Positions 21,991-41,674 of a DNA stretch of 64,000 nt are shown here, one piece after another. The translations under genes and the position numbers were made by a program. Each line of letters starts with the position of its first letter. The first letter of the stretch is position 1. Below the pieces are notes generated by a model. That model was not told the origin of the DNA. It ran no database searches and worked only from the letters and a program-made list of their open reading frames with translations. This DNA is from Nocardioides luteus (lineage in GTDB: Bacteria; Actinomycetota; Actinomycetes; Propionibacteriales; Nocardioidaceae): the NCBI RefSeq assembly GCF_015752315.1, contig NZ_JADOVJ010000001.1, positions 1,852,501 through 1,916,500 of the forward strand, given 5' to 3'.

Positions 21991-22058
21991 ATCGCAACGG
22001 CTCAAATCTTGGGTCCGTTGCAGTGTCCGGTGGACAGATCTGCATTGAGGAGAAACTG

Positions 22059-22954: not shown

Positions 22955-24454
22955 ATGGCGAATCTAGCGACCAATCTGATCAAGACAGCTCGGGAACTGC
23001 CCGATCGGCCCGCGGTGAGGCTCGACGACCACGTCCTCACCTATCGCGAACTCCTAGACGCCGCGTCGACGATCGCCGAAGATCTGCGCGGACGTGGAGT
23101 AGGGCCGGGCGACCGCGTCGCAGTCTCGCTACCCAATGTTCCCGCCTTCCCCGTCGCGTTCTACGGCGCACTCCTTGCTGGTGCGGCGGTGGTTCCGATG
23201 AATCCCCTGCTCAAGAAGCGCGAGGTTGAGTTCTACCTCAGCGACTCGATGGCAAGCCTGGCCTACTGTGCTGCCGAGGGTAGCGACGCTCTGCAGGACG
23301 CCGCAAATGACCTCGGGGTCGACGCGATCCCCGTTCCCTTGAGCGGGCCAAGCCTGCGACACGTCGGTGCCTTGGAGGCCGTTCCGCGTCGCATGAGCGA
23401 CACTGCCGTCATCCTCTACACATCGGGCACGACCGGGCAGCCCAAGGGTGCGGAGCTCACGCATTGGAACCTGATGTCGAACGCGGCAACCAGCGTCGAG
23501 ACCCTGCTCAAGATTGATTCCGACGACGTCGTCATGGGCTGTCTGCCCCTGTTCCACGTGTTCGGATTGACGTGCGCCCTCAACGCGTCGGTTCTCGCCG
23601 GATCGTGCCTCACATTGATTTCGCGCTTCGACGCCGCCAAGGCGCTCGACGTGATCGCGCGGGACCGCGTGACCGTGTTCGAGGGCGTCCCCACCATGTA
23701 TGCAGCGATGTTGCACTCCGCTGCAGCCGCCGAGGCAGACCTGCGGACCCTGCGGACCTGCATCACAGGCGGTGCCCCGATGCCTGTCGAAGTGTTGGTG
23801 GAGTTCGAAACGCGCTTCGGCTGCGAGATTCTCGAAGGCTACGGACTGTCCGAAACGTCACCGGTCGCGTGTTTCAATCACCCCGGCCAAGAGCGACGCC
23901 CAGGCACCATCGGTGTCGCCGTCCGAGGCTGCCAACTGAGGGTGGTCGACGACGCCGGGACGGACGTCGCGATCGGGGTTCCCGGCGAGATCGCCATCCG
24001 GGGGGAGAACGTGATGAAGGGATACTGGAATCGTCCCGGGGACACAGCGGCAGCAATCCCTGACGGGTGGTTCCGCACGGGCGACATCGCTACCAAGGAC
24101 GTCGACGGATACATCACGATCGTCGATCGAAAGAAAGACCTGATCATCCGCGGCGGTTACAACGTCTATCCCCGCGAGGTCGAAGAGGTCCTCTACGAGC
24201 ACCCAGCGGTGGCGGAGGCGGCCGTCGTCGGCGTAACCCACCCAGAACTCGGTGAGGAGATCACTGCGGCGGTCGCACTCAAACCGAATCGGACGGCGTC
24301 TCCAGAGGAACTTCGTTCGTTCGTGCGCGACCGACTGGCCGCGTACAAGTACCCACGGACAGTCTGGGTGCTCGATGCCCTCCCGAAGGGCCCCACCGGG
24401 AAGATCCTGCGCCGCGAGGTCCAGAGCATGGCGGCCGCCGGCACGCTCAAGTGA
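22955..24454 (+). CDS. Long-chain acyl-CoA synthetase (AMP-forming)
   Basis: The 499-residue protein is a complete ANL-family ligase. Motifs in order are the P-loop-like [18 protein letters not shown] near residue 155, YGLSETSP near 302, [16 protein letters not shown] near 370, [20 protein letters not shown] near 390 and the C-terminal Lys in [13 protein letters not shown] near 485. It activates a carboxylic acid to its acyl-CoA through an acyl-AMP intermediate in the cytoplasm. It is paired with the upstream SDR. No TetR-type operator was seen directly before this pair. Confidence 0.92.
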
Positions 24455-25132
24455 GCGTGGTCATGCAACCTGAAGTCGACACCTCCTCGATCTCAACCGC
24501 GTCCACGGTCCGGTCCGCGTAGAGGGCTCGACCAGGTCGTGGACGGATCGGGGGCCGATGTCAGCCGCGTCATCGGTCCAGAGCGCTCCTGATGTTCCTT
24601 GTGCCTGGACACCATCGGTTGTCGATAGTGAATTCGCACGCACAGAGAATCGGCCAGCACACCCACGAGCGCGCCGCTGATACCAGCCACGTCACGCAGC
24701 AGCGTGGGGAAGTCCTAGATTCCTGCGGCCACTCACTCGACCGAGATCGGCCGCGTCTCCACGACGTGTCCACATCGGTGCACGGGAACTCCCGAGGCGC
24801 ACGATCTGGGCGGCGAGGCGGAGGTTCTCCGCCTCCGTACGCCAAGGGAGCCTGAAGTCGGTCGAAAGCGGTGCCACACGTGTCGATTCCATGCAGACAT
24901 TCATCGACTCGGGGCCTTGGGCGGAACCCGGCCACTTCTTGCGTGCCAACCCTAGACAAGAAGAAGCCAACAAGTTAGATTCAAAACGCGACTCAAGTCG
25001 TGTCTCTCTGGGGTTGGCGAAGAGGGGCGCGTTGTTGCTTGACCGAGGTTCGTCAGAGGCGTGCTGGGCGTACGACTTCCTCGGCCCCTGGCAGAGGGCT
25101 GATGGGCCCTCGAGAAAGAAGGAAGAAGCTCC
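24455..25132. other. Non-coding stretch before the phosphotriesterase-like gene
   Basis: No gene is supported here. The stretch contains an 8-bp perfect stem AGGCGGAG/CTCCGCCT with a three-base loop at 24816-24834, terminator-like, and the perfect TetR-type operator B at 24986. The 130 bp between the operator and the ATG form an unusually long leader. Confidence 0.6.
24986..25003. promoter_or_regulatory. TetR-type operator, site B (perfect)
   Basis: ACGCGACTCAAGTCGTGT fits the consensus ACRCGACTNNAGTCGYGT at every position. It lies 130 bp before the phosphotriesterase-like gene at 25133. Confidence 0.8.
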
Positions 25133-26194
25133 ATGTCTCACCAACTGCGCACTGTCCTCGGTGACATCGATCCGTCTGCGATGGGTGGCACCCTTCCGCA
25201 TGAGCACCTTCAGGGTGTCTGCGACATGTACTGGTACCCCGGCGACGACCCGCTTGCGGACTCGGATCCGGATGCCAGTCCGCGGCTCGACAACCTGTGG
25301 CACTGGATGGAGAACCCAGTGGCAAACCGGGGCAACATGCACATGACTGACGAACAGGACTCGATCGACGAACTCCGAGACCTGCCGGGTCTCGGCATCG
25401 GCACCGTCGTGAACCTGACGCCCATCGGAATGCACCGGAACGCCGAGGGCCTCCGTCGCATCTCCGAAGCCTCTGGGGTCAACATCGTGGCCGGCTCCAC
25501 CTACTACGTGGCGGAGGCGCTTTCCAAAGAGGTGAAGGCCCTGATGGAGGAAGAGATCACGCGACGCATCGTCGACGACATCGAGGTCGGCATGGATGGA
25601 ACCGCCATCCGCGCCGGGATCGTCGGCGAAGTCGGGCTTTCATGGCCGATCGACCCGGTCGAGGAACGTGTGTTGGCCGCGAGTGTCCAGGCTCACCTGC
25701 ACACCGGCGCAGCACTGTCGATCCACAACCCCTACTACGTCCCGGGGTCTGAGGCGATGGAGCAGGTCGCCAAGCTGATTGCTGGGTTCGGCGCGGACAT
25801 GAGTCGCGTGATCATGGGGCATTGCGACGGGTTCACCCGTGACCCGCGGTTCTACGACATCGCCCGCGAGTACGGCTGCTATGTTGAGCTGGACATGTTC
25901 GGATACGTGTCCGGCTACGAAGCCGAGATTGACTTCACCTATCCGGCTGACTCTGATCGTGTCGACGCCATCCTCCGCATGATTGAGGAAGGAATGGCCG
26001 ACCGCCTGCTCCTCTCGCACGACATGGTGTTCAAGACGACACTGAAGAAGTACGGTGGATTCGGCCTCGGCCGCATCCACCGCGTCATCAAGCCATGGTT
26101 GGAGCGCCGAGGCGTCGACGCAGAGACCCTGGAGCAGATCCTCGTGCGCAACGCCCAGACCGTCTTGCCGATGCGCGTACCGGCCACTTCCTGA
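25133..26194 (+). CDS. Phosphotriesterase-like amidohydrolase
   Basis: The 353-residue protein belongs to the PTE family of binuclear metal hydrolases. The N-terminal HxH motif lies in LPHEHLQG near residue 24. Further ligands are His in LSIHNPYY and MGHCDGF and Asp in LLLSHDMVF. At the bridging position the sequence reads GIVGEVGLSW, with Glu where PTE has a carboxylated Lys, as in the E. coli homologue PHP. Such enzymes hydrolyse lactones, phosphoesters or N-acyl amides. The operator upstream ties it to amine catabolism, so a lactone or N-acyl amine is my favoured substrate. Confidence 0.85.
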   Translation: MSHQLRTVLGDIDPSAMGGTLPHEHLQGVCDMYWYPGDDPLADSDPDASPRLDNLWHWMENPVANRGNMHMTDEQDSIDELRDLPGLGIGTVVNLTPIGMHRNAEGLRRISEASGVNIVAGSTYYVAEALSKEVKALMEEEITRRIVDDIEVGMDGTAIRAGIVGEVGLSWPIDPVEERVLAASVQAHLHTGAALSIHNPYYVPGSEAMEQVAKLIAGFGADMSRVIMGHCDGFTRDPRFYDIAREYGCYVELDMFGYVSGYEAEIDFTYPADSDRVDAILRMIEEGMADRLLLSHDMVFKTTLKKYGGFGLGRIHRVIKPWLERRGVDAETLEQILVRNAQTVLPMRVPATS

Positions 26195-28762: not shown

Positions 28763-29878
28763 TCAGCCCAGAACGTCCTCGAGCGGCTCGGTGTCGATCC
28801 CGACAGCCTCGCCGACGGGCCGGTTGGTGAGCTTGCCGGCGTGGGTGTTGAGGCCGAGGGCGAGGGTGTGGTCGTCGCGGCAGGCCTGCTGCCAGCCCTT
28901 GTTGGCCAACGCCACGGCGTACGGCATGGTCGCGTTGGTGAGAGCGTACGTCGAGGTGTTCGGCACGGCGCCCGGCATGTTGGCGACGCAGTAGAAGGTC
29001 GAGCCGTGCACCTGGTAGGTGGGATCGGCGTGCGTCGTCGGTCGGGTGTCCTCGAAGCAGCCGCCCTGGTCCACGGCGATGTCGACGAGAACGGAGCCCG
29101 GCTTCATCTGCGAGACGAGCTCGTTGGACACCAGCTTCGGTGCGGCCGCGCCGGGAATGAGCACCGCGCCGATGACCATGTCTGCCTGACGGACCTGCTC
29201 GGCGATCGCCAGCTTGGACGACGCCAGCCCGTGGACTCGGTTGTTGTAGCGCCAGAACGACATCCGCAGCTTCTCGAGGTCGGTGTCGATCAGGGTCACG
29301 TCAGCACCCATGCCGAGGGCGATGTTGGCTGCGTTCTGCCCGGCCACCCCGGCGCCGATGACGACGACCTTGGCATTCTCCACGCCGCCGACGCCGCCGA
29401 GCAGGACCCCGCGCCCGCCTTGGGCCTTGAGCAGCGCGTGCGCCCCGACCTGGGGCGCCAGGCAGCCGGCCACCTCCGACATCGGGTAGAGCAGGGGCAG
29501 CGCGCCGGAGGGCAGCTGGACGGTCTCGTACGCGATGCCGGTGACCTTGCGCGCGAGCAGCTCCTCGGTGAGCGGCTTGTCCGCGGCGAGGTGAAGGTAG
29601 GTGAAGAGCACCTGTCCCTCCCGCATCCGGTGGTACTCCTCGGCCACCGGCTCCTTGACCTTGAGGATCATCTCAGTGCTGCCCCACACCTCGTCGGCGG
29701 TGTCGAGGATCTTGGCGCCCGCGCCGGCGTACTCGGCGTCGGAGATCGAGGAGCCGACGCCGGCCCCCGCCTCGATGACGACGTCGTGGCCGTGGGAGAC
29801 CAGCTCGTTCACGCCGAGTGGCGTGATCGCGACCCGGTACTCGTGGTTCTTGACTTCCTTGGGGATACCGATGCGCAT
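28763..29878 (-). CDS. ald: Alanine dehydrogenase
   Basis: The 371-residue length is exactly typical. The N-terminus [20 protein letters not shown] is diagnostic. Catalytic Lys is in MILKVKEPV near residue 75 and His in FTYLHLAAD near residue 96. The NAD-binding motif [20 protein letters not shown] is near residue 170. It oxidises L-alanine to pyruvate and ammonia with NAD. It is the last gene of the aminotransferase-amidotransferase-ALDH operon, where it would recycle the alanine produced if the aminotransferase uses pyruvate as amino acceptor. GAGAGGA precedes the ATG. Confidence 0.95.
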
Positions 29879-29891
29879 GTGCTTTCCTCTC

Positions 29892-31259
29892 TTACGCGTT
29901 CGGAGATGTGTTGAAGAAGACGTTCTTGACTTCGGTGTAGGCGTCGACGGCGTCCGGTCCGAGCTCGCGGCCCAGGCCCGACTGCTTGAAGCCACCGAAC
30001 GGGGTCGTGACCCGAACGGAGCTGTAGGAGTTCACCGCCAGTGCACCGGCGGTGAGTCCGCGAGCGACGCGTAGCGAACGCGCCGCATCAGAGGTCCAGA
30101 TCGAGCCGGCAAGCCCGTAGACGGTGTCGTTGGCACGGGTGATCGCCTCCTGTTCGTCGTCGAAGGGGAGGATGGCGACCACCGGTCCGAAGATCTCTTC
30201 GCGCGCCGCCCGATGGTCGTCCTCGATGGGGTAGAGGACCGTGGGCGGGAACCAGTAGCCGTCGCCCGAGGGAGCGGACCCGCGGAAGAGAACCGGTGCT
30301 GCCTCCACGTAGTCCGCGACGGTCATAGCATGGCCCGCTGAGATGAGGGGGCCCATCTGGGTGCTCTCGGCGAGAGGGTCTCCCACCCGCAGGTTGTCGA
30401 CGACATCCTGGAGCTTCTCGAGGAAGAGGTCCAGCGCGGGTCGCTGGACGAACACCCGCGACCGAGCGCAACAGTCCTGACCGGAGTTGCCGAAGACGGC
30501 ACCGGCCAGACCTTGCGCGGCGGCGTCGAGATCTGCGTCCGCGAAGACGAGCGCGGCAGACTTTCCGCCGAGCTCGAGCGTGACGCGCTTGATGCCGTCT
30601 GCCGCCCTTCGCGCGATCTCCTTGCCGACGGCGGTCGATCCGGTGAAGGCGATCTTGCCGATGGTGGGATGGTCCACCAGCTGGCGGCCCAACGTCGAGC
30701 CAGGACCGAGGACGACATGGAACAGGTCCTCAGGGAGGCCGGCAGCGACGGCCAGGTCCCTCAGCCGAAGTGCTGAGAGCGGGGTCATCTCGGACGGTTT
30801 GAGGACGACGGCGTTGCCCGTCGCGAGGGCCGGGGCCACCTTCCACGCAGCGATCGTGAGCGGATAGTTCCACGGTGTGATCAGGCCGACGACGCCGATC
30901 GGCTCGCGGAACGTCATGTCGACCCCACCGGCGACGGGGATGGTCTGTCCGAGGAGCCGTTCGGGCGCCGCGGCGTAGTAGCGGAACGTGGCTGCGGCTC
31001 CGGCGACGGCTCCACGTGCGTCGTTGATGGGCATCCCGACGTTGCGTGCCTCGAGGTGAGCGATCTCCTCGAGGTTCCGGTCGATCTCGGTGGCGATGGC
31101 CAGCAGGACCTGGGCGCGCGTCTGCGGTGTCTCGCTGGCCCACTTCCGCTGGGCGGACGACGCCCGCGTGACCATCGCGTCCAGGTCGGACGGGGCGGTC
31201 TGCTCGAGCGACTCCAAGATCCGCTCTGTGGCTGGCTCGATGACGTTGATAACACTCAT
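29892..31259 (-). CDS. NAD(P)-dependent aldehyde dehydrogenase
   Basis: The 455-residue protein has the ALDH motifs in order: PWNYPLTIAAWKVAPAL near residue 130, GSTAVGKEIARRA near 205, the general base Glu in TLELGGKSAALVF near 228, the nucleophile Cys in NSGQDCCARSR near 263 and GPVVAILPFDDE near 355. It oxidises an aldehyde to an acid. Its ATG overlaps the stop of the amidotransferase-type gene (ATGA). In a Puu-like pathway it would play the PuuC role on gamma-glutamyl-aminoaldehyde or semialdehyde. Confidence 0.92.
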   Translation of the reverse strand: MSVINVIEPATERILESLEQTAPSDLDAMVTRASSAQRKWASETPQTRAQVLLAIATEIDRNLEEIAHLEARNVGMPINDARGAVAGAAATFRYYAAAPERLLGQTIPVAGGVDMTFREPIGVVGLITPWNYPLTIAAWKVAPALATGNAVVLKPSEMTPLSALRLRDLAVAAGLPEDLFHVVLGPGSTLGRQLVDHPTIGKIAFTGSTAVGKEIARRAADGIKRVTLELGGKSAALVFADADLDAAAQGLAGAVFGNSGQDCCARSRVFVQRPALDLFLEKLQDVVDNLRVGDPLAESTQMGPLISAGHAMTVADYVEAAPVLFRGSAPSGDGYWFPPTVLYPIEDDHRAAREEIFGPVVAILPFDDEQEAITRANDTVYGLAGSIWTSDAARSLRVARGLTAGALAVNSYSSVRVTTPFGGFKQSGLGRELGPDAVDAYTEVKNVFFNTSPNA

Positions 31260-31996
31260 GACAGTGGTCCTCGGGTGGTCTGGGTCGTGGTGGACACGAA
31301 GTGGGTGAGGGCGTGTTCGAGCTCGACGGCCTCGGGGTGCCACTGCACGCCCAGGACGTACCGGGAACCGGGCCACTCCAGGGCTTCGGGCAGTCCGTCG
31401 GGCACGGAGCGCGCGGTGACGACGGCACCCTCACCGAGGACGTCCACGCCCTGGTGGTGATGGGAGTTCACGACCTGGACCCCGCTACCGGACAGCGCGG
31501 CAGCGTGCGTGTCACAGTCGACCTCGACATCGTGAAAGGTCTCGTGGTCGAGTCGTCCCGGGCTGCGGCGGTGATCTGCGAAGCCTGCGTCGGGAAGATG
31601 CTGATGCAGGGTCCCGCCCATGGCGACGTTGAGGATCTGCATGCCTCGGCACACCCCCAGGACTGGTACGTCACGACGCATCGCCTCCCGTACGAGCGCC
31701 AGCTCGAAGGCATCGCGCAGCGGCTCGGTTGCCTCGGTGCGCTCGGTTCGGGGTGCGCCGTACGATGCCGGCTCGACATCGACGCCGCCGATGAGGAGAA
31801 GGCCGTCGATACGGTCGACCAGAGGGGACGGGCGATCGACGCCACTCTGATCGGGGAGCAGGCCGATCGCCATGCCGCCGGCGGCGTGGATCTTGTCGAG
31901 ATACGTGGAGGGAATCAGCGCTGCCTGCTGGTGCCAGAAGCCCCATTGGGCTGCTTCGAAGGCCGCGCAGACGCCGATGACGGGTGGATTGACCAT
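31256..31996 (-). CDS. Gamma-glutamyl hydrolase (PuuD-like, peptidase C26)
   Basis: The 246-residue protein is a class I glutamine amidotransferase-type hydrolase. The nucleophile Cys lies in VLGVCRGMQILNVAMGG near residue 115. The His/Glu pair is in GVQWHPEAVE near residue 222. IDGLLLIGGVDVEPASYG near residue 63 is typical of peptidase C26 and PuuD. The family cleaves gamma-glutamyl amide bonds; PuuD frees GABA from gamma-glutamyl-GABA. GGAG lies before the ATG. Its place between aminotransferase and ALDH genes supports the PuuD role. Confidence 0.85.
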   Translation of the reverse strand: MVNPPVIGVCAAFEAAQWGFWHQQAALIPSTYLDKIHAAGGMAIGLLPDQSGVDRPSPLVDRIDGLLLIGGVDVEPASYGAPRTERTEATEPLRDAFELALVREAMRRDVPVLGVCRGMQILNVAMGGTLHQHLPDAGFADHRRSPGRLDHETFHDVEVDCDTHAAALSGSGVQVVNSHHHQGVDVLGEGAVVTARSVPDGLPEALEWPGSRYVLGVQWHPEAVELEHALTHFVSTTTQTTRGPLS

Positions 31997-32033
31997 GTGT
32001 TGCTCCGAACTGGAAGAGGTGCGGGCCGGCTGG

Positions 32034-33407
32034 TCACGCGATCTCGTTGGCGAACTTGTCTTCGGCCTCGGTGAGGCACCGGTCGACGATCTCGATCGCG
32101 CGCTCGGCCTCACTTCGGGTGAGGACGAACGGCGGGGCGAGATGCAGTACGTCCCAGACCCGCGTGACCAAGCCCTCCTCCTGGGTTCGCAGAGCGAGGA
32201 ACTTGATGAACGGATGCGACGTGCCCCAGGCCTCCTTGGTCGTCTTGTTCTTCACGAAGTCGATGGCGCACAGCAGGCCCATGCCTCCGCGGACGTCGCC
32301 GACAGTCGGGTGGCTGCGCAGACGCTGGGCCAGCTCGAACAGATAGCTTCCGATCTCTGCCGAGCGATCGACCAGGTTCTCCCGCTCGAGGATCTCGATG
32401 TTCTTCAGCGCGGCCGTCGCGGCGACGGCGTGGCCGCCGAAGGTGATCAGGTGGTTGAGAGCCTGGCCCGACGGGCGGAAGTCGTCGAAGATCGAGGACC
32501 GAACCGCCACGGCGGCGATGGGTGCGTATCCGCTGGACAGGCCCTTGGCCATGGTCATGATGTCGGGCACCACGCCGTAGTGCTCTGCTGCGAACATCTT
32601 CCCGGTGCGTCCCCAGCCGGTGATGACCTCGTCCATGATCAGCAAGACGCCGTACCGGTCGCAGATCTCGCGCAGCATCTGCCAATAGGTCGGGCTCGGC
32701 AGGTGCGTACCGTTGGCCACCGAGATCGGTTCACCGATGACCGCGGCGACGTGCTCGGGGCCCTGGGCCAAGATCTCCTGCTCCACGTAGCGTGCGCACA
32801 TGATGTCGCCCGCCTCGCCGTCGAGCCCGAAGTCGTTGCGGTAGTGGTTGGGGTTCGGAACCTTGCTGACCCCGGCCATGAAGGGGCCGAAGTACTTCTC
32901 GCTGGCGCTGCCGGTCAAGCTCGCGGCGCCGAAGGTGGTGCCGTGGTAGGAGCCTCGGCGAGCGATGATCTTGTAGCGCTTCCCGTAGCCGCGCATCACC
33001 TGGACCTGCTTGGCGATCTTCATCGCGCTCTCGACCGCCTCGGATCCTCCTGAGCAGAGGAAGACCCGATCGAGGTCGCCCGGCGTCAGCGAGCTGATCT
33101 TGTCCGCGAGCGCGATGTTGGCCGGGTTGGCGGCGTTGGACGCGGCGGTGTAGGCGAGCCGTCCGGCCTGCTCGGCCATCGCCTCGCCGATCTCCGTCCG
33201 TCCATGACCTGCAGCGACGACGAACAGCCCGGCCAGTCCGTCGATGTACTCCTTGCCGCGGGCATCGATGAGGGTGGAGCCGTGGCCTTCGACGAAGACT
33301 CGGAGCCCACCGCTCGCGAGCTCGCTCCACTCCAGGTCGTTGCTGTGCAGCCACAGGTGCTCCAGGGCCTGCGCCTCGAGCCGCTCTCCGGTGTTCTGTG
33401 AAGTCAT
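32034..33407 (-). CDS. Class III (omega) aminotransferase
   Basis: The 457-residue PLP enzyme shows CSGGSEAVESAMKIAKQ near residue 112, the RRGSYHGTTFGAASLTG region near 145, the PLP-binding Asp in LLIMDEVITGWGRTGK near 245 and the Schiff-base Lys in MTMAKGLSSGYAPIAAV near 275. Class III enzymes of this kind move the terminal amino group of an amine or omega-amino acid to pyruvate or 2-oxoglutarate. It is the first gene of the operon that ends in ald, which hints at pyruvate as acceptor. Operator site C lies 69 bp upstream. Confidence 0.92.
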   Translation of the reverse strand: MTSQNTGERLEAQALEHLWLHSNDLEWSELASGGLRVFVEGHGSTLIDARGKEYIDGLAGLFVVAAGHGRTEIGEAMAEQAGRLAYTAASNAANPANIALADKISSLTPGDLDRVFLCSGGSEAVESAMKIAKQVQVMRGYGKRYKIIARRGSYHGTTFGAASLTGSASEKYFGPFMAGVSKVPNPNHYRNDFGLDGEAGDIMCARYVEQEILAQGPEHVAAVIGEPISVANGTHLPSPTYWQMLREICDRYGVLLIMDEVITGWGRTGKMFAAEHYGVVPDIMTMAKGLSSGYAPIAAVAVRSSIFDDFRPSGQALNHLITFGGHAVAATAALKNIEILERENLVDRSAEIGSYLFELAQRLRSHPTVGDVRGGMGLLCAIDFVKNKTTKEAWGTSHPFIKFLALRTQEEGLVTRVWDVLHLAPPFVLTRSEAERAIEIVDRCLTEAEDKFANEIA

Positions 33408-33475
33408 GATGTTCTCGTCCTTCCAGCCAATGCCCGCCATATTGGATTGAGTGATGCTCCATTAGTACTCACGAA

Positions 33476-33493
33476 ACACGACTGGAGTCAAGA
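33476..33493. promoter_or_regulatory. TetR-type operator, site C (one half degenerate)
   Basis: ACACGACTGGAGTCAAGA keeps the left half and AGTC of the right half of the consensus ACRCGACTNNAGTCGYGT. It lies 69 bp before the aminotransferase gene, on the side facing that operon. Confidence 0.5.
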
Positions 33494-33547
33494 AAAGATC
33501 TAAGTCTCCGGCTCCGGATGTCCGCGCCGTCGAGAATCGATTGCTAG

Positions 33548-33565
33548 ATACGACTGCAGTCGCGT
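33548..33565. promoter_or_regulatory. TetR-type operator, site D
   Basis: ATACGACTGCAGTCGCGT matches the consensus with one mismatch in position 2. It lies 71 bp before the TTG start of the glutamine-synthetase-like gene. Sites C and D stand 72 bp apart between the two divergent genes. Confidence 0.7.
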
Positions 33566-33635
33566 ATGTTGGAACGCCAATCGATCCTTTTGTGGCGGAA
33601 CCTCACTCCGCTGTCTGCGATCCCAGGGAGGCGCC

Positions 33636-34985
33636 TTGTCTACACAGCTGTTCGGCCATCACGGGCTGGATGCGACGAACCACTCGGAGGAAACGCCTGG
33701 CTCACGGGCCGGCGCACCGGTGGACGCGCGCTCCGTCGTCCTGCTCTTCCCCGATGTCAACGGCAACCTGCGGGGCAAGATGCTCGATCCGTCGGTCCTG
33801 CACTCGGAACAGGCGCGCGGAGCAGGTCTGCCGACCACCGACCTCATGCTTGCTGTCGACCCCGTCGACGAACCCATCACTACGCTGCCCAGCAGGGGGA
33901 TCAACGCAGGATCGAAGGACCTGCTGCTGCGCCCCGACCCGTCGACCCTCCGCCCGCTGCCTTGGTTCGACAGCTCGTACGTGCTGCTCGGTGATCTTCA
34001 CGAGCAGGACGGCACCCCGTGCGCCATCAGTCCGCGGCAGGTGCTGCGACGTACGCTGGGAGCGCTGGCGGATCGTGGCCTCGAGGTCAGAGCGGCTTTC
34101 GAGTTCGAGTTCCGGCTGTTCCGTGCGGACAGCTGGCAGCCGGCGACGACGGGGCTGAGCTACAGCCCGTTGGCCCTGTCTCAGATCAGCGAGTTCATCA
34201 CGACGTTCCGAGCATTCGCCGACGAGCTCCGACTGGGGCTGTCGGTGCTGCACAGTGAGGGCGCGCCTGGGCTGATCGAGGTCAACGTCGAACCTCAGAG
34301 CGGGCTGCAGGCCGCGGACACCGCTGCCTTGTTGCGTTTGGCGGCGATCGAAGCCGCTGCCAAGCATGGGTTGCGCGCCAACTTCATGGCCAAGCCGGTC
34401 GCGCACGAGGAGGGTTCGAGCGCCCACGTGCACTTCTCCCTGTGGGACCACGCGGGCGCCAACGTGCTGAGGGCATCTCGTGACGATCCTGATGACGAGC
34501 TCTTCCGCCGCGTCGCCTGGGGCGTGCTCGAGCACCTGCCGGCTCTCAGTCTCCTCTACAACCCGACGATCAACTCATACAAGAGACTCGTCCCCGGCTA
34601 CTTCGCGCCGGTGAGCGCCGCATGTGGTCCTGATGACCGGTCGTTCGCCCTTCGCGCTCTGCTCAAGACACCGGACTCCAGCCGGTTCGAGCTGCGACGA
34701 CCTGGCGCGGACTGCAACCCGTACCTGGCTCTGGCGGCGATCGCGGCGTCGGTTCGGCTGGGGCTCGACGAGCAGGTTCCGCCGAGCCGTGACCGGCTCG
34801 ACGACCATGATGAGGCGCTGCCGACGAGTCTCGAGGCGGCGTTGTGGGAGTTCCGGCAACGCGACACCCGCCTGGACGATGCGCTCGGCGCCGAGTTCTG
34901 TACGCACTACGTGCGCACGCGCGAATGGGAGCTGCACGCGTGGCAGAACGCGGTCAGCGAGTGGGAACGGCAGCGCTATGCGTAG
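33636..34985 (+). CDS. Glutamine-synthetase-like gamma-glutamyl-amine ligase (PuuA-like)
   Basis: The 449-residue protein has the glutamine synthetase fold. DVNGNLRGKML lies near residue 41, metal-binding Glu residues in AFEFEFRLF and EVNVEPQSG, the His in SSAHVHFSLWD near 270, NPTINSYKRLVPG near 310 and RFELRRPGADCNPYLALAA near 355. It lacks the Tyr adenylylation loop of GlnA and matches the GlnT/PuuA-like group that attaches glutamate to amines with ATP. The TTG start has AGGGAGG four bases upstream. It sits alone on the plus strand, facing the aminotransferase operon across operators C and D. Confidence 0.85.
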   Translation: MSTQLFGHHGLDATNHSEETPGSRAGAPVDARSVVLLFPDVNGNLRGKMLDPSVLHSEQARGAGLPTTDLMLAVDPVDEPITTLPSRGINAGSKDLLLRPDPSTLRPLPWFDSSYVLLGDLHEQDGTPCAISPRQVLRRTLGALADRGLEVRAAFEFEFRLFRADSWQPATTGLSYSPLALSQISEFITTFRAFADELRLGLSVLHSEGAPGLIEVNVEPQSGLQAADTAALLRLAAIEAAAKHGLRANFMAKPVAHEEGSSAHVHFSLWDHAGANVLRASRDDPDDELFRRVAWGVLEHLPALSLLYNPTINSYKRLVPGYFAPVSAACGPDDRSFALRALLKTPDSSRFELRRPGADCNPYLALAAIAASVRLGLDEQVPPSRDRLDDHDEALPTSLEAALWEFRQRDTRLDDALGAEFCTHYVRTREWELHAWQNAVSEWERQRYA

Positions 34986-35002
34986 CCGGCATCGCCGGAC
35001 GG

Positions 35003-35665
35003 CTACTCCCCGGAGAGGCCGGCGAAGTAGTTCAAGAGCATGCTGCGTGCTTCTTGGATCACGGCGGGGTCGCCCGAGGGGTCATCGAGGAAAGCGAACT
35101 GGCACAGACGTTCGAGACTGTGGATGGCGACCGCGCACTGCAGATGCGTCAGGTCGGTGAACAGAGGCGCGTACGAGCGGAACTGAGCCACGAGCAGCTC
35201 GGCGATGTCCTCGATCGCCAAGAGGTCCAGCTCGCGTGCTCTCTGGGTGAGGTTCTGACGAACCCAGAGCTCTCTTATGAGTGGAACCCGGTGCTCTTCC
35301 ACGTAATAGTCGACGAGGATGTCGATGATGGCGGTCCATCGCTTCCCGGTGCGGTTCTCGAGGGCCACCTCCAGATCGCCGACCGACTGCAGGATCCTCT
35401 GGTAGGCGAGTTCGTCGAGCACGCTGGCGGGCGATTCGAAGAAGGCGTAGAAGGAACCTCGGCTGACGCCGGACTTGTCCAGCAGAAGCGTCGGTGACTT
35501 CACCACGGCCTCGAAGCCGACTTCCTCGACCAGGTCGGCGGCGATCGACAGGACCTGATTGACCATCGCGCGCGAGCGCTCCTGCAAGGGGACCTTTCGA
35601 AGTCCGCCGGCCAACGGATGATGCCAGGTGTTGCCGACAGTTGCGCTCAGAGACCCCGCGGTCAA
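35003..35665 (-). CDS. TetR-family repressor of the amine locus
   Basis: The 220-residue protein has a TetR N-terminal domain: IAADLVEEVGFEAVVKSPTLL followed by the recognition helix GVSRGSFYAFFESPASVLDEL. The rest is a helical ligand-binding domain. I chose the TTG at 35665 because AGGGGAGG stands four bases before it; it gives 38 residues before the HTH start, longer than usual. Operator-like palindromes E and F lie upstream, the first 93 bp away, which fits autorepression. It is convergent with the ligase gene. The ligand is probably the amine or an intermediate. Confidence 0.88.
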   Translation of the reverse strand: MTAGSLSATVGNTWHHPLAGGLRKVPLQERSRAMVNQVLSIAADLVEEVGFEAVVKSPTLLLDKSGVSRGSFYAFFESPASVLDELAYQRILQSVGDLEVALENRTGKRWTAIIDILVDYYVEEHRVPLIRELWVRQNLTQRARELDLLAIEDIAELLVAQFRSYAPLFTDLTHLQCAVAIHSLERLCQFAFLDDPSGDPAVIQEARSMLLNYFAGLSGE

Positions 35666-35757
35666 CGATCCTCCCCTGTTCCGCTCTACGGACCGCCGCC
35701 GGGGCCGCTGTCGACCCGCGATCACAGTCCACTTTCTCCCATGACGCTAACAGGTTA

Positions 35758-35775
35758 ACGCGACCAGAGTCGCGA
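35758..35775. promoter_or_regulatory. TetR-type operator, site E
   Basis: ACGCGACCAGAGTCGCGA matches the consensus ACRCGACTNNAGTCGYGT with two mismatches. It lies 93 bp before the tetR start and is probably the autoregulatory site. Confidence 0.65.
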
Positions 35776-35841
35776 TGGGGGTTTGTAAAACCGAGGTTGC
35801 GTCTCTTGACGAGCCCGGCGGGCGGGAATAACGTCGATAAG

Positions 35842-35859
35842 ACACGACTGAAGTCGCGT
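35842..35859. promoter_or_regulatory. TetR-type operator, site F (perfect)
   Basis: ACACGACTGAAGTCGCGT fits the consensus at every position. It is 44 bp before the ferredoxin-reductase ATG at 35903 and should control the whole reductase-flavodoxin-permease-P450-cupin operon. Confidence 0.8.
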
Positions 35860-35902
35860 CTCTGGTCCGAGTTTGTCGCAGGTCTACTCCTGAGGATGAA
35901 TC

Positions 35903-37177
35903 ATGTTGGATGCGAACAGCACGCCGCCGACGGTGGCTATCATCGGTAGCGGCCCGTCGGGCTGTTACACCGCCCAGTTCCTGGCGAAGGGGATGCCTGG
36001 TGCGGAGATCACCGTGTTCGAGTCGATGCCGACTCCGTACGGGCTCGTCCGCTACGGGGTGGCAGCCGACCACCAAGGGACCAAAGGCGTCACGCGGCAG
36101 TTCGACCGGCTGTTCACCCGGGCGGGCGTGCGCTTCGCCGGCAACGTCGCCATCGGTCGCGACATCGACTTCGAGGTTCTGGCGCGCTCCTTCGACGCCG
36201 TGGTGCTGGCGACCGGCCTGCCCCTGGACCGCCCGCTGGGGATCCGCCAGGACGCACACGCCCGCGTCCTCGGCGCCGGGGCGTTGCTGCGTACTCTCAA
36301 CGGGTATCCCGTCGACGTCCTCGGCCGCGATGACCACGGCCGGCACGTCTCGCTGGGCCGCCACCTGGCGGTGGTCGGACTCGGTAACGTCGCGATCGAC
36401 GTGCTCCGGCTGCTCGTCAAGCCGACCGCCGACCTTGTCGGCACCGACATCGACGACATCTCGCTCCACGAGCTGCGCCCGACACCACCTTCGACCGTCG
36501 ATGTGATCAGCAGATCTGGTGTCGAACGGGCGAAGTGCGACGTGGCGATGCTGCGCGAGCTCCTCGCTCTGCCGAACGCGCACGTCGAGGTCACCGGTCT
36601 ACGCCCGGACGACTGCGGACCGGCAGCGGAGCTCCTGCGTGCCCACACGCAAGCTGCCGGCGCGGGTGTCTCTGCGGAGCACCCCACGCAGGTACGTCTG
36701 CACTTCGGCTGTGTTCCGGAGGCGATCGATCATCGCAACGGCAAGGCACTCGTACGAGCCACGACCGTCGATTCCCAGCCGGTCGAGCTGGCTGTGGACA
36801 CCGTCATCACGGCCATCGGGTTCACGCACGACAGCGCGGATGATCCAAGCGGCCCCACCGAGAGCTGGTCCGGCGTGAACGTGTACCGCGTCGGATGGTT
36901 GGCGCGCGGAGCGAAGGGAACGATCGCGGAGAACCGCCGGCATGCCCAGGACGTGGCAGCCACCATCATCCAGGACTTCGCGATGGGTCGGCTCCAAGCA
37001 TCCCGGCCAGGGTTCCGCGCGGTCGGCTCGCTCCTCAGCGACCGCATCGTCGACTTTGCCGACTGGCAGCGGATCGACGAGGCGGAGCGGCAGTCCGCGC
37101 CCCCGCAGCGCTGCCGTCTGAAGATCACCAAGCTCGACGAGATGCTCCTCGTCGCGGACAGGAAGGCCAACGCATGA
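35903..37177 (+). CDS. Ferredoxin/flavodoxin-NADP reductase (FprA/adrenodoxin-reductase type)
   Basis: The 424-residue flavoprotein has the FAD motif VAIIGSGPSGCYTAQFL near residue 12 and MPTPYGLVRYGVAADHQGTK near residue 40, typical of adrenodoxin-reductase-like enzymes. The NADP site is VVGLGNVAIDVLRLL near residue 158. GWLARGAKGTIAENRRHA near residue 332 is the second FAD segment. It moves electrons from NADPH to a small carrier. Its last codon overlaps the flavodoxin ATG, and a P450 follows two genes later, so all three probably form one electron chain. Confidence 0.92.
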   Translation: MLDANSTPPTVAIIGSGPSGCYTAQFLAKGMPGAEITVFESMPTPYGLVRYGVAADHQGTKGVTRQFDRLFTRAGVRFAGNVAIGRDIDFEVLARSFDAVVLATGLPLDRPLGIRQDAHARVLGAGALLRTLNGYPVDVLGRDDHGRHVSLGRHLAVVGLGNVAIDVLRLLVKPTADLVGTDIDDISLHELRPTPPSTVDVISRSGVERAKCDVAMLRELLALPNAHVEVTGLRPDDCGPAAELLRAHTQAAGAGVSAEHPTQVRLHFGCVPEAIDHRNGKALVRATTVDSQPVELAVDTVITAIGFTHDSADDPSGPTESWSGVNVYRVGWLARGAKGTIAENRRHAQDVAATIIQDFAMGRLQASRPGFRAVGSLLSDRIVDFADWQRIDEAERQSAPPQRCRLKITKLDEMLLVADRKANA

Positions 37178-37626
37178 ACGCAGCAACAATCCTCTACGGG
37201 ACCGAGAGCGGCAACTCCGAGATGGTCGCGGAAGACGTCGGCGATGCTCTCCGTGACCGGGGAATCGCGGGCGAGGTCTTCGCCATGGATGAATACCCGG
37301 TCGACGAGCTCAGCCACCAGGAGCTCGTCATCTTGATCACCTCCACGTATGGCGAGGGCGAGCTGCCGGTCGGGGCGCTGCCCTTCTTCGAGGCGCTGGA
37401 TGCCGCGAGCCCGAACCTTTCGTCGACTCGTTTCGCGGCGTTCGGCCTCGGCGACAGCACGTACGAGACTTTCAACCGGGGCATCGCGGCCCTGGTCGAC
37501 ACCTTCATCGGTCTCGGGGCCGAGCAGATCGGAGAAACCGGTCACCATGACGCCGCCACCGGACTCGACGCCTCCGAGGCCGCGGTCAGCTGGATCGACG
37601 ACGTCTTCGCCCCCGAGCGGGCTTGA
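37174..37626 (+). CDS. Flavodoxin
   Basis: The 150-residue protein carries the FMN phosphate loop YGTESGNSEMVAED at residues 8-21. The later FMN loops are TSTYGEGELPVGALPFFEAL near residue 57 and GLGDSTYETFNRG near residue 91. It is a short-chain flavodoxin in place of the ferredoxin that usually serves bacterial P450s. The ATG overlaps the reductase stop by four bases (ATGA), which couples their synthesis. It should shuttle single electrons from the reductase to the P450 encoded 1.5 kb further on. Confidence 0.92.
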   Translation: MNAATILYGTESGNSEMVAEDVGDALRDRGIAGEVFAMDEYPVDELSHQELVILITSTYGEGELPVGALPFFEALDAASPNLSSTRFAAFGLGDSTYETFNRGIAALVDTFIGLGAEQIGETGHHDAATGLDASEAAVSWIDDVFAPERA

Positions 37627-37655
37627 TCGCCACGCACCCTCACAAGGAGACCGAA

Positions 37656-39149
37656 ATGACCGACAACAAACTGGCGGGGGAGACGCCGCCGACGTCACCC
37701 AATGCCCCCGCACACGGACACGCCGAGCTCTCGGGTCGCATGGGCGTTGCGCCGCTCATGCTCACCGTCCTCGCATTCTCCGCCCCGATCGCAGCGGTGG
37801 CGGGCTTCATCCCCTTCACGATCATTCTCGGCGGCGAGGGCGCCACGCTCGTCTTCGTCTTCGCCACCGTGCTCATGCTCTTGTTCGCCGTCGGGTACGT
37901 CACGATGACGAAGAGCATCCCGAGGCCGGGCTCCTTCTATGCGTTCATCAGCGCCGGCTTGGGCAAGGTGGTCGGGCTGGGCGGCGCCTTCCTGGCATTG
38001 GCTGCGTACCTGCTCATCCTGAGCGGGTGCTACGTGTTCACCGGACTCTTCGTCACAGAGTTCATCAACAGCCAGGGCGGACCCACCACGCCCTGGTGGG
38101 TGTGGGCAGCTCTGTCCTGGGCACTCGTCAGCGTGCTGTGCTATTTCCACATCGAGGTGTCGGCCAAGATCCTCACCGTCGCGATGGCCTTGGAGGTCGC
38201 GATCGTGATGATCTTCAACCTCGCTGTGCTCGCACGTGGCGGCGGACCGAACGGATACTCGGCCGATCCCATCACTCCGTCCACACTGTCCCAAGGCGAT
38301 GTGAGCTTGGCGCTGCTGTTCGCCATCATGATCTTCCTGGGCTTCGAGGCGACGGCGCTGTTCCGCGACGAGGTCCGCGATCCCGACCGGACCATCCCGC
38401 GCGCGACGTACGGCGCCGTCCTGTTCGTCGGCACGCTCTACATCCTGTCCTGCTACCTGCTGACGACGGCGTACGGCGATGGTGCGGTGCAGGCCGCCAC
38501 GGACTCGCCGAAGTCGATGTTCGCCGATGCCATCGGCCAGTTCGCGGCCCCGATGTTCAGTGACCTGACCTTCGTCTTCATCATCACGTCCGAGCTCGCG
38601 GCGGCGATCTCGGTCCACAACGTGACGTCTCGCTATACCTACAACCTCGGCCGCGACCAGGCCCTGCCGGCGGCGCTGGCAAAGGTCCACCCGAGGCATG
38701 CCTCGCCGTACCGCGCCTCGGTCGTGGTGGCGGCCGTCGTCGCTCTCGTGCTGGTGCCGCTTGGGCTCGGGAACACGACCGGCATCGGTCTGGACGCGCA
38801 GCTCTTCGGTCTCGGCACCGTCGGAGTCCTGGTCCTGATGACTCTGGTCAGTCTGTCGGTCATCGTGTGGTTCGGCCGTGAGCCGGCGCTCGCCGGCGCG
38901 CACTGGTTCAAGTGTTTCGGTGCACCTGGCCTGGCCGTCGTGGCTCTCGGCGCGACGGTGGTGTTCGCGGTACTGAACTTCGAGCTCGTGGTCGGTGGCC
39001 CGCCGGGCCAGAACCTCGGCCTGCTGGTGGTGCTCGCCGCCTTCCTCGTCGGTGGCTCACTGCTGGCCGTGTACTTCCGGCAGTTCAAGCCGGAGATCTT
39101 CGCGAGGCTCGGCCGCGCCGAGGGTTCCGAAGTCGAGAGCGTCTCCTGA
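37656..39149 (+). CDS. APC-family amino acid/amine permease
   Basis: The 497-residue protein has about 12 membrane helices. MLTVLAFSAPIAAVAGFIPF lies near residue 30 and SFYAFISAGLGKVVGLGGAF near residue 95. DEVRDPDRTIPRATYG marks the loop after helix 6. AAGGAG lies seven bases before the ATG at 37656; an in-frame TTG at 37623 is less likely. It is paralogous to the permease at 20450, and both follow the same operator type. Its place between flavodoxin and P450 suggests uptake of the P450 substrate. Confidence 0.9.
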   Translation: MTDNKLAGETPPTSPNAPAHGHAELSGRMGVAPLMLTVLAFSAPIAAVAGFIPFTIILGGEGATLVFVFATVLMLLFAVGYVTMTKSIPRPGSFYAFISAGLGKVVGLGGAFLALAAYLLILSGCYVFTGLFVTEFINSQGGPTTPWWVWAALSWALVSVLCYFHIEVSAKILTVAMALEVAIVMIFNLAVLARGGGPNGYSADPITPSTLSQGDVSLALLFAIMIFLGFEATALFRDEVRDPDRTIPRATYGAVLFVGTLYILSCYLLTTAYGDGAVQAATDSPKSMFADAIGQFAAPMFSDLTFVFIITSELAAAISVHNVTSRYTYNLGRDQALPAALAKVHPRHASPYRASVVVAAVVALVLVPLGLGNTTGIGLDAQLFGLGTVGVLVLMTLVSLSVIVWFGREPALAGAHWFKCFGAPGLAVVALGATVVFAVLNFELVVGGPPGQNLGLLVVLAAFLVGGSLLAVYFRQFKPEIFARLGRAEGSEVESVS

Positions 39150-39175
39150 CAACCGATCGAGAGGACGAGAACGAG

Positions 39176-40417
39176 ATGAACATCTTCAGCACGCCTGCAG
39201 CCGAACGCGGGGTCGGGACGGTCACCGGTACGACGACGGACTGTCCACGCGCGGCCGACTACTTCCCGTGGAAAGACCCTGCGCTCCGGGAGAACCCCTA
39301 CCCCTTCTACGCGCGTGCCCAGGCCGAGGCACCGGTCACCAGAGACGAGGACGGCACCATCGTCCTGACCAAGTACGACGACCTCATGCACTACGGGCGA
39401 CTGCCTTCTGTGGTGATCCGGCCCGAGTGGGGGAAGGCCGGAGCCTGGAGCATCCTCATGGACATGGCGCTCGGCCACGATGAGCCCGAGCACACCCGAC
39501 TGCGACGCCTGACGAGCAAGTGGCTCACGCCCAAGCAGATCCGGGAGTGGGTGAAGATCACGGCATCCATCACCGACGAGATCCTGGATCGCATCGGTGA
39601 CGACGGCCTCGTGGACGGCTCCGATCTCGCCGTCGAAGCGACGCATCGCACGATCTGTCGGGTGCTGCAGGTTCCAGAGGACGAGATCGACAACGTACGT
39701 CGCTACATGCGCCAGACGATGCCGGTGCTCAGCGCGGTTCCTGATGCGGCCGACTTCGAGGAGTGCGAGCGTGCCCACCGCTACCTACGAAGCCGCACGG
39801 CGGAGCTCATCGAGCACGCCAGGGCGCATCCCAACGACGGTCTGCTGAGCTACCTGCTGGGCCTGCAGGACACCGGGGAGATGAGCGAGGAGGAGGTCTT
39901 CGCGACGGCGCTGTTCTTCTACTTCGTGGGCCACATGGACGCGAGCTACCTCATCTCCTCCGGCCTCCACCTGTTCACGCGCCGACCTGATGTCTACGAC
40001 GTGTTCCGGGGCGATCCGGAGTCTCGGCAGGCGATTCTGAGCGAGCTCGTCCGGTTCGACGCGCCGGAGCCGGTGGTGACCCGGGCGACCACCGAAGACC
40101 TGGTCATTCGCGGCGTACACGTTCCCGCAGGGACGTCGCTCAGGCTGCTGCTCGGTGCGGCCAATCGTGACCCGGAGGTCTACGACAACCCTCACGAGTT
40201 CGACTACACACGGCCGCCCGAGCAATCGCGGAACCTCACCTTCAGCTTCGGTACGCACACCTGCCAGGGCCGCCTCCTGGCAGAGGCCGAGATCCGTGTC
40301 GTCTGGGAGCGCATCGCCGCGCGGTACTCCCGGATCGAGCTCGAGTCTCCTCCGCTGATGAAGAACACCGACGCCTCACGGCACTACTGGACGCTGCCGC
40401 TTCGGCTGCACCGCTAG
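39176..40417 (+). CDS. Cytochrome P450
   Basis: The 413-residue protein has the ExxR motif in ILSELVRFDAPEP near residue 290. The heme loop is FSFGTHTCQGRLLAEAEIR, with the Cys ligand near residue 362. The I-helix reads FFYFVGHMDASYLIS: the acidic residue is kept but the usual Thr is Ala, as in P450eryF-type enzymes that use a substrate hydroxyl. It probably hydroxylates or N-dealkylates an amine. In mycobacteria a P450 next to a glutamine-synthetase-like gene serves secondary-amine (piperidine, pyrrolidine, morpholine) degradation, which is a useful analogue. GAGAGGACGAG lies upstream of the ATG. Confidence 0.92.
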   Translation: MNIFSTPAAERGVGTVTGTTTDCPRAADYFPWKDPALRENPYPFYARAQAEAPVTRDEDGTIVLTKYDDLMHYGRLPSVVIRPEWGKAGAWSILMDMALGHDEPEHTRLRRLTSKWLTPKQIREWVKITASITDEILDRIGDDGLVDGSDLAVEATHRTICRVLQVPEDEIDNVRRYMRQTMPVLSAVPDAADFEECERAHRYLRSRTAELIEHARAHPNDGLLSYLLGLQDTGEMSEEEVFATALFFYFVGHMDASYLISSGLHLFTRRPDVYDVFRGDPESRQAILSELVRFDAPEPVVTRATTEDLVIRGVHVPAGTSLRLLLGAANRDPEVYDNPHEFDYTRPPEQSRNLTFSFGTHTCQGRLLAEAEIRVVWERIAARYSRIELESPPLMKNTDASRHYWTLPLRLHR

Positions 40418-40472
40418 TCGGACGACGAACCATCCCGCACGAAGATCGAACCAAGAGAAGGAGACACTGACG

Positions 40473-40829
40473 ATGACAACGACCCCATCCATTCCCACCG
40501 TGGTGATCACGGACGCGCGTGACATCGAGCTCGAGGACTGGGGCCCGCTACCCGAGGCGACCGGAGCGCCCATGCGGACCGCGGGGAAGAAGCTTTGGGA
40601 AGGCGACGGCGTGCTCGAGGTCGGCCTCTGGGAGTGTGAGCCCGGGCCCTCCCGCTGGGTCTTCGAGACCAACGAGTCGATCACGATGCTGTCGGGCCGC
40701 ATGGTCGTCACCGAGGACGGCGGTGAGCTCTACGAGATCAAGGCCGGCGACAGCGCTGTCTTCCCTCGCGGCTGGACCGGCCTCTGGGACATCAAGGAGA
40801 CCGTCTTCAAGGTGTACACGGCCTTCTGA
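40473..40829 (+). CDS. Cupin-domain protein (EutQ-like, DUF861)
   Basis: The 118-residue protein has one cupin barrel. The segment SRWVFETNESITMLSGRMVVTEDGGE near residue 52 is followed by IKAGDSAVFPRGWTGLWDIKETVFKVY. This is the Cupin_3 pattern that occurs beside amine and ethanolamine genes. The metal-binding His residues of classic cupins are mostly absent, so it may bind a small ligand rather than catalyse. GAAGGAG lies eight bases before the ATG. It is the last gene of the P450 operon. Confidence 0.85.
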   Translation: MTTTPSIPTVVITDARDIELEDWGPLPEATGAPMRTAGKKLWEGDGVLEVGLWECEPGPSRWVFETNESITMLSGRMVVTEDGGELYEIKAGDSAVFPRGWTGLWDIKETVFKVYTAF

Positions 40830-40851
40830 CCCGGAACGCGGCAAGATGACA

Positions 40852-40894: not shown

Positions 40895-40906
40895 TTCTCC
40901 TGGGCC

Positions 40907-41674
40907 TTACGAAGTCGCGATGGTGCGCTGCTTCAAGGACGACAAGAGCTTCTCCACGCTCCACGTGCTTCGTTGGAGGTGGATCCGCATGGCACTTTCT
41001 GCGGTCTCCGGCCTGCCGGCCTCAACGGCAGTCAGGATGGCGCTGTGCTCCTCGATCGTCGCGTCGTGGAACGCTCCACTCTCGGGCAGCAGAGCGAGCG
41101 CGGGGTGACAGCACTGCCGGGCCTCCTCGATCCCTTCGACGAGGAATGGGTTGGCAGTGATGTTGGCCAACGTCAGGTGGAACACAGCATCGCTTCTCAT
41201 GAAGGCCGCGTCATCAGCGGCCTCTTGCAGCGCCGAGTGTGCCACCGTCAGTTGCTCGAGCTCGCCGGCGGTGCGGCGCTCGCCGGCAAGCCTCGCCACC
41301 AGTGGCTCCACCAGGAGGCGGTACTCCATCGCGTGACGGATCTCGTCACGCTTGTCGATGGCGAGCGCGATGACTTCGCGAAACCTGAGCTCATCATCGC
41401 TCGCGCCACGTACGAACGCCCCACCGTTGCGCCCACGGCGCCGCTCGATGAGGCCTTCGCTCTGTAGCTGCTTGAGCGCGTTCTGCACCGGGGTGCGGCC
41501 GACACCGAGCAGCTCGGCGAGCTCACGCTCGGAGGGCAGCGATGACCCAGGTGGCAGCAATCCAAGACGGATCTCTCGCCGGACCAGATCCTCGACATAT
41601 CGATTTGCATCTACGTCCGGGGGAGGCACGCCAGCACGCCCCCTGGCTCGGTCGAGTAGCGTCAGGTTCTCCAT
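40907..41674 (-). CDS. GntR-family (FadR/FCD) transcriptional regulator
   Basis: The 255-residue protein has a GntR winged helix in residues 25-92 (IRLGLLPPGSSLPSERELAELLGVGRTPV, wing RRGRNGGAFVRG). An FCD ligand domain follows, with metal-binding residues plausible in DAVFHLTLA and EEHSAILTAVEAG. FCD regulators answer to carboxylic acids. The permease gene upstream has a different direction of control region; the GAGTCT palindrome at 43364 is a candidate site. Confidence 0.88.
   Translation of the reverse strand: MENLTLLDRARGRAGVPPPDVDANRYVEDLVRREIRLGLLPPGSSLPSERELAELLGVGRTPVQNALKQLQSEGLIERRRGRNGGAFVRGASDDELRFREVIALAIDKRDEIRHAMEYRLLVEPLVARLAGERRTAGELEQLTVAHSALQEAADDAAFMRSDAVFHLTLANITANPFLVEGIEEARQCCHPALALLPESGAFHDATIEEHSAILTAVEAGRPETAESAMRIHLQRSTWSVEKLLSSLKQRTIATS

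Follow-up and report, generated by a model that had tools for sequence, protein, structure and literature searches.

A Nocardioides luteus gene cluster likely to break down an amine by glutamate tagging and oxidation with an XplA-family cytochrome P450

RESULTS

Gene content of the cluster

In a window of 64,000 nucleotides from Nocardioides luteus (contig NZ_JADOVJ010000001.1, positions 1,852,501 to 1,916,500), we identified a gene set for the likely breakdown of an amine, which would be tagged with glutamate and oxidized by a cytochrome P450 whose nearest relative among solved structures is XplA, an enzyme that attacks the nitramine RDX; the amine is predicted from the gene content. Thirteen genes at 28763 to 43246 were read and scanned against family profiles (Table 1). 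A minus-strand block encodes an alanine dehydrogenase, an aldehyde dehydrogenase, a C26 hydrolase, and a class III aminotransferase, and the glutamine-synthetase-like ligase lies on the plus strand. A minus-strand TetR gene is followed by a plus-strand operon for an FprA-type reductase, a flavodoxin, a permease, the P450, and a cupin, and then by the genes for a GntR-type regulator and another permease, both on the minus strand. A previous sequence-only reading had described a pathway resembling the Escherichia coli Puu pathway at this place, but lacking the oxidase PuuB. The family scans found all of the genes it named in their places and superfamilies, and no PuuB-type FAD oxidase is encoded between 28763 and 40829 or by any of the thirteen genes up to 43246.

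A shared operator

The palindrome AYRCGACTNNAGTCGYRT occurs with at most one mismatch at four sites in the window (20297, 24986, 33548, and 35842), compared with 0.01 expected from shuffled sequences. In the whole 5.82-Mb genome there are three exact copies, all inside the window, and two copies with one mismatch, one at 20297 of the window and the other at 462522. Only exact and one-mismatch sites of the long pattern were informative: at up to three mismatches the genome showed no enrichment (73 sites versus 87 for a reversed control pattern), nor did the 12-base core at up to two mismatches in the window (37 versus 61 expected). These sites bear out the common operator that had been proposed for the P450, flavodoxin, and reductase genes. 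Operator copies not mentioned in that proposal precede the PTE-family hydrolase gene (25133) and, with one mismatch, the operon for a permease, an SDR oxidoreductase, and an acyl-CoA ligase (20450 to 24454), and both therefore probably belong to the same regulon. The TetR-type regulator is the likely owner of the palindrome, judging from conservation and position.

The P450 and its redox partners are of the XplA/XplB type

Sequence comparison assigned the P450, flavodoxin, and reductase to the XplA/XplB type, a character that was absent from the sequence-only reading and that we rate as the strongest fact of the analysis. The P450 is 45.5% identical to XplA, which was its top solved structure by both sequence and fold among the matches listed, and the best solved match of the flavodoxin was cindoxin. 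In a P450 tree, XplA and the window P450 fell into a clade of 34 rows with 100/100 support against six outgroup P450s. A specific sister relationship between XplA and the window P450 was rejected, since the tree shows a three-way fork of XplA, the window group, and a third group; likewise, the reductase tree placed XplB with another clade (loci L031 to L034 of our set) and not as the specific sister of the window reductase.

The I helix of the window P450 reads G-H-M-D in place of G-x-D/E-T, with Met and Asp at the acid-alcohol positions. These positions were compared in 96 alignment rows, 41 from the ligase-linked group and 55 others, some being the same protein fetched twice; four of 66 homologues (P0033, P0057, P0060, and P0063) were omitted. 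The position that we take to be Asp251 of P450cam carries M in 67 rows, P in 11, L in 10, H in 6, and Q and V in one each, and the presumed Thr252 position carries D in 76, N in 17, A in 2, and S in 1, both Ala rows being the two copies of XplA. The Asp/Glu-Thr pair was found in none of the 96 rows but in all six outgroup P450s. A review describes the motif as apparently lost in XplA and ties the loss to denitration in air (PMC8081977). Loss of the pair is common to the whole family as sampled and thus by no means confined to the two XplA copies; what sets XplA apart is only the change to Ala. In addition, the ligase-linked clade has conserved Arg175 and Arg179, in a predicted F helix (171 to 185), which the others mostly lack.

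In the window, the flavodoxin and P450 are separate genes with a permease gene between them, so the fusion seen in XplA is lacking. Such a fusion was found in 6 of 24 non-orthologous family loci, two of them XplA and four of the Rhodococcus R138 type, and it is not peculiar to XplA. The latter four (L013, L064, L067, and L068), found in R. erythropolis R138 and in three genomes of mycobacteria (R. for Rhodococcus), also have XplB-like reductases; an aldehyde dehydrogenase gene is nearby in three of them and a permease gene in two.

Table 1. Genes and operator-like sites of the cluster and of its putative regulon, with positions in the window
Feature	Position	Strand	Remarks
Operator-like palindrome	20297..20314		One mismatch; precedes second permease operon (20450-24454)
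APC-family permease	20450..21916	+	37% identical to permease at 37656
SDR oxidoreductase	22023..22898	+	PRK08278 subfamily, above cut-off
Acyl-CoA ligase	22955..24454	+	AMP-binding
Operator palindrome	24986..25003		Exact; precedes PTE gene
PTE-family metal hydrolase	25133..26194	+	PF02126
Alanine dehydrogenase	28763..29878	-	TIGR00518, 531 bits (cut-off 392)
Aldehyde dehydrogenase	29892..31259	-	Aldedh; 48% to TC1 ipu-cluster aldehyde dehydrogenase, 39% to PuuC
Gamma-glutamyl hydrolase-like protein	31256..31996	-	Peptidase_C26
Class III aminotransferase	32034..33410	-	Aminotran_3
Operator core	33479..33490		One mismatch; precedes aminotransferase
Operator palindrome	33548..33565		Exact; between aminotransferase and ligase
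Putative glutamine-synthetase-like amine ligase	33636..34985	+	Gln-synt_C; TTG start
TetR-type regulator	35003..35665	-	TTG start; ribosome-site-like stretch before start
Weaker second operator core	35761..35772		One mismatch in 12-base core
Operator palindrome	35842..35859		Exact; precedes reductase-P450 operon
FprA/adrenodoxin-reductase-type reductase	35903..37177	+	41.5% to XplB
Flavodoxin	37174..37626	+	Flavodoxin_1; 48.6% to XplA flavodoxin domain
APC-family permease	37656..39149	+	AA_permease; 37.5% to TC1 permease, 22% to PuuP
XplA-family cytochrome P450, unfused	39176..40417	+	p450; I-helix G-H-M-D
EutQ-like cupin	40473..40829	+	Family scan
GntR/FCD regulator	40907..41674	-	Family scan

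Start sites were refined for the TetR gene (35665), the hydrolase (31996), and the aldehyde dehydrogenase (31259).

The ligase is predicted to use an amine

The ligase keeps the motifs of glutamine synthetase that we take to form its metal site and to supply its arginines. The flap Glu of E. coli GlnA (Glu328 with Met counted, presumably Glu327 in the usual numbering) is replaced by Phe in the window ligase and its nine relatives, and the same position holds Tyr in PuuA and Trp in IpuC. This change does not amount to proof, but it fits an amine rather than ammonia as the substrate, and we consider such use highly probable.

The gene set resembles Ipu more than Puu

The Puu set of E. coli K-12 has a ligase, aldehyde dehydrogenase, C26 hydrolase, aminotransferase, and permease of the same superfamilies as the window. 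However, the subfamily labels PuuA, PuuC, and PuuD given in the sequence-only reading did not hold, the scores lying far under the NCBIfam cut-offs (190 versus 650 bits for NF045547 [PuuA], 366 versus 850 for PuuC, and 105 versus 266 for PuuD). All five window enzymes that have counterparts both in Puu and in the Ipu cluster on plasmid pTC2 of Paenarthrobacter aurescens TC1 are closer to TC1. With the cut-offs missed and these enzymes nearer to TC1, we rejected Puu as the best family label.

The annotated TC1 cluster contains a permease, a class III aminotransferase, aldehyde dehydrogenases, ipuC, an amidotransferase, a P450, a ferredoxin, a ferredoxin reductase, and an alanine dehydrogenase. 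The same kinds of genes are found in the window, where the ligase, the P450 with its redox partners, the amidotransferase, the aldehyde dehydrogenase, and a permease stand in one cluster. It differs in having a flavodoxin for the ferredoxin, another type of reductase, and another gene order, and the two key enzymes are not close kin, with 34% identity between the ligases and 26% between the P450s. The Ipu cluster also occurs in Pseudomonas KIE171.

The Ipu route of isopropylamine is described as leading from the IpuC ligase to a multicomponent P450, a postulated amidotransferase, and further oxidation (PMC6776027). In Gulosibacter, glutamine-synthetase genes are reported with locus numbers adjoining those of PipA-type P450s (PMC9477822). 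Glutamylation combined with a P450 is thus already known, and the new element lies in the type of P450 and the redox chain that serves it. The earlier interpretation is partly supported: a coregulated gamma-glutamylation-type amine pathway with a flavodoxin-fed P450 and without PuuB stands, but the plan is not undescribed as it had supposed. Among the titles and abstract openings listed from the open-licence literature, we found no description of a glutamylation cluster whose P450 is of the XplA type or fed by a flavodoxin. The window cluster can be regarded as an Ipu-type plan built on the XplA redox trio, and as such it represents a second redox design for amine breakdown by glutamylation plus a P450.

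A second gamma-glutamylation set lies in the same genome 7 to 18 kb to the left of the window (1830000 to 1849900), with an APC permease (28% identical), an IpuC-like ligase (32%), a C26 hydrolase (39%), and an aldehyde dehydrogenase (47%). A gene for a PuuB-like oxidase (29%) is located about 9 kb from the ligase of this set, and further PuuB-like genes are located near 3.62 Mb.

Likeness to other P450 systems

The XplA/XplB system (CYP177; RDX; plasmid pGKT2 of Gordonia KTR9 and Rhodococcus DN22) has the same redox chain at the identities given above, and in KTR9 cupin and GntR/FCD genes stand nearby, as in the window. On pGKT2, one open frame (10852 to 13431 of locus L009) joins a glutamine-synthetase-like domain to XplB; the gene table used shows the XplB part only. 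Close kinship between this domain and the window ligase was rejected, as the two are 27% identical and the domain has a slightly higher bit score against E. coli GlnA; the resemblance between the xpl neighborhood and the window cluster may therefore be partly independent. The window differs in its unfused flavodoxin and P450, its Asp instead of Ala at the Thr position, and its full amine-catabolic set.

The PipA/MorA-type clusters of mycobacteria and Gulosibacter have a P450, redox partners, and, in Gulosibacter, a glutamine-synthetase gene with a neighboring locus number, and their P450s are of the CYP151 type. A P450 of pGKT2, which we take to be of this family, is 27% identical to the window P450. 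In MorA clusters the electron carrier is a ferredoxin, going by a title cited in PMC9477822.

P450cin (CYP176A1) is a flavodoxin-fed bacterial P450 with a terpene substrate and an unusual residue at the Thr252 position, and cindoxin is its flavodoxin. P450cin was absent among the best 60 of 446 sequence matches and the 50 fold-comparison matches listed for the window P450, which does not exclude kinship.

Conservation and distribution

An orthologous block was found in nine other genomes (Mycolicibacterium wolinskyi, M. brisbanense, Mycobacterium aquaticum, five others of one genus, and Rhodococcus triatomae), with P450s 68 to 81% identical to that of the window. All nine have the reductase, flavodoxin, permease, cupin, GntR, TetR, and ligase genes, and the cupin adjoins the P450 in each. 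The GntR protein, whose gene the sequence-only reading had not noted as a conserved neighbor, is 69 to 74% identical and is encoded near the ligase in these genomes. The set of aminotransferase, hydrolase, and aldehyde dehydrogenase was present in all eight relatives readable on that side, the aminotransferase being 86 to 91% identical. The exact 12-base operator core stands directly before the reductase gene in eight of the nine, and R. triatomae, the remaining one, has one-mismatch sites elsewhere within its cluster. A PTE-family gene adjoins the ligase in seven of the nine, its product being 33 to 34% identical to that of the window. In the relatives, but not in the window, pdxS (vitamin B6 synthesis; named by eye from sequence) is linked to the cluster (e.g., L058 at 11417 to 12436; also L019, L057, and L071 to L075); it is full or nearly full in seven, broken into two frames in L057, and represented in L018 by a fragment at the contig edge.

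A protein search yielded 32 proteins at 65 to 97% identity among 7999 scored candidates, one being a fragment covering 76%, and the names included Amycolatopsis, Pseudonocardia, and Gordonia. At E 1e-60, no orthologue was found in 97 other genomes of the window's genus, where two matches were only 37 and 39% identical; with its own genome, 3 of 98 matched. Draws at E 1e-65 gave matches in 1 of 396 genomes of the phylum (its own) and in 6 of 391 of the order. In a mycobacterial genus, 12 of 297 genomes matched, 7 of them with orthologues at 68 to 81% identity, and in a further genus 2 of 150. In these last four draws scoring was limited to the 4 to 12 best candidates of each genome, so that absence is weak evidence. 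Three of seven loci from a scan of genome contigs with short exact peptides were dropped as other P450s (24% identical).

The region from 20300 to 43246 has a GC content of 65.2%, compared with 68.7% in the remaining window, and has IS3-type transposase genes next to it (judged by eye). Because of these two features, its horizontal gain is likely. At 26799 to 28660 there are genes resembling IS3-type transposases, recognized by eye, and beside them a 106-residue piece (28307 to 28624), 75% identical to the end of the PTE-family gene product, which is a remnant of a second copy.

DISCUSSION

A predicted order of reactions

We consider it probable that the locus is an inducible catabolic cluster for an amine that works by the Ipu plan. 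The APC permease would import the amine, and the ligase would join it to the gamma-carboxyl of glutamate at the expense of ATP. The XplA-family P450 would oxidize this gamma-glutamyl amide in its alkyl part, with electrons supplied by NADPH via the FprA-type reductase and then the flavodoxin. The P450 product would next be oxidized by the aldehyde dehydrogenase, the C26 hydrolase would release glutamate, and the aminotransferase and alanine dehydrogenase would remove the nitrogen, by transamination with pyruvate and recycling of alanine, under control of the TetR protein at the conserved palindrome. The pairing of an aminotransferase with alanine dehydrogenase is an established pattern with pyruvate as the acceptor; it therefore suggests pyruvate as the acceptor here, and the alanine dehydrogenase likely regenerates it from alanine. 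The substrate of the PTE-family hydrolase may be a small amide; hydrolysis of N-acetyltaurine is reported for PTER, a related protein of mammals (PMC11374699). The substrate and all reactions of this scheme are predictions, made from gene content, synteny, operator, XplA-type trio, and ligase flap, which are read from the DNA. That the P450 belongs to the same pathway is very probable, and glutamylation would more probably precede oxidation than follow it.

Several observations weigh against this reading. Alanine dehydrogenase is encoded near the P450 in only two of the nine relatives; the PTE-family hydrolase, the SDR/acyl-CoA ligase operon, and the relatives' pdxS have no clear step in the scheme; and the P450 is distant from that of TC1. 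Furthermore, of the 24 non-orthologous family loci, 17 have the flavodoxin and reductase and 16 have a permease, but a ligase-like gene is present in just 2. The P450 module therefore works without glutamylation elsewhere, and oxidation of the free compound by the P450 may come before glutamylation. By this order, the P450 would N-dealkylate or ring-open the free imported amine, as in secondary-amine pathways of the CYP151 type, and the ligase would take the resulting primary amine. We regard it as rather unlikely, because the aldehyde dehydrogenase and the hydrolase would then depend for their substrates on a second oxidase acting after glutamylation, and the cluster showed no such enzyme. 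Arg175 and Arg179, moreover, could fit a carboxylate-bearing substrate, which is a weak point against it.

A true Puu variant for putrescine or cadaverine, in which the P450 would take the role of PuuB by oxidatively deaminating the gamma-glutamyl-diamine, was the version of the sequence-only reading. It would give the ligase, aldehyde dehydrogenase, C26 hydrolase, and aminotransferase their Puu roles, but it is improbable given the wide margins by which the PuuA, PuuC, and PuuD cut-offs were missed and the low identity of the permease to PuuP; the second glutamylation set and the PuuB-like candidates elsewhere in the genome also make the need for such a variant questionable. Still far less probable is a locus for RDX or nitramine degradation with the P450 denitrating reductively as XplA. 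XplA is indeed the closest solved relative among the matches listed, and a public record labels the R. triatomae orthologue XplA, but the identity to XplA is modest, Asp stands where XplA has Ala, the flavodoxin is unfused, and the remaining genes fit amine catabolism. That record (P0009) names an unfused protein as flavodoxin-cytochrome P450 XplA and looks like a label transferred by similarity.

A possible setting for the origin of XplA

Grasses and bacteria engineered with XplA are used to combat pollution by explosives (PMC8081977), and specialists may be surprised to find XplA-type proteins naturally placed among genes of amine catabolism. We tentatively suggest, as a possibility somewhat short of even, that the XplA family comprises widespread and overlooked flavodoxin-fed P450s of amine catabolism in which Met, Leu, or Pro and Asp or Asn natively replace the acid-alcohol pair, that the ligase-linked clade oxidizes gamma-glutamyl amides, and that XplA is an offshoot recruited to RDX with an Asp-to-Ala change and a fused flavodoxin. 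If so, the natural forebear of XplA can be sought by way of the window cluster, and a coregulated, syntenic amine cluster around an unfused XplA relative is a concrete place to seek the ancestral kind of substrate.

A plasmid of Klebsiella grimontii (L012) carries a module of reductase, flavodoxin, and XplA-family P450 with TetR, MFS, and APC permease genes, and other Klebsiella and Enterobacter plasmids encode P450s 38 to 39% identical to that of the window. The P450s of a sister clade (47 to 48% identical; L029, L062, and L065) are accompanied by a related cupin (53 to 58%), an acyl-CoA ligase, and, judged by eye, hydantoinase/acetone-carboxylase-like and BKACE-like genes, a different pathway. 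In the P450 clade at 46 to 49% identity, neighbors of these two kinds and transhydrogenase-like genes, again judged by eye, pointed to no clear substrate.

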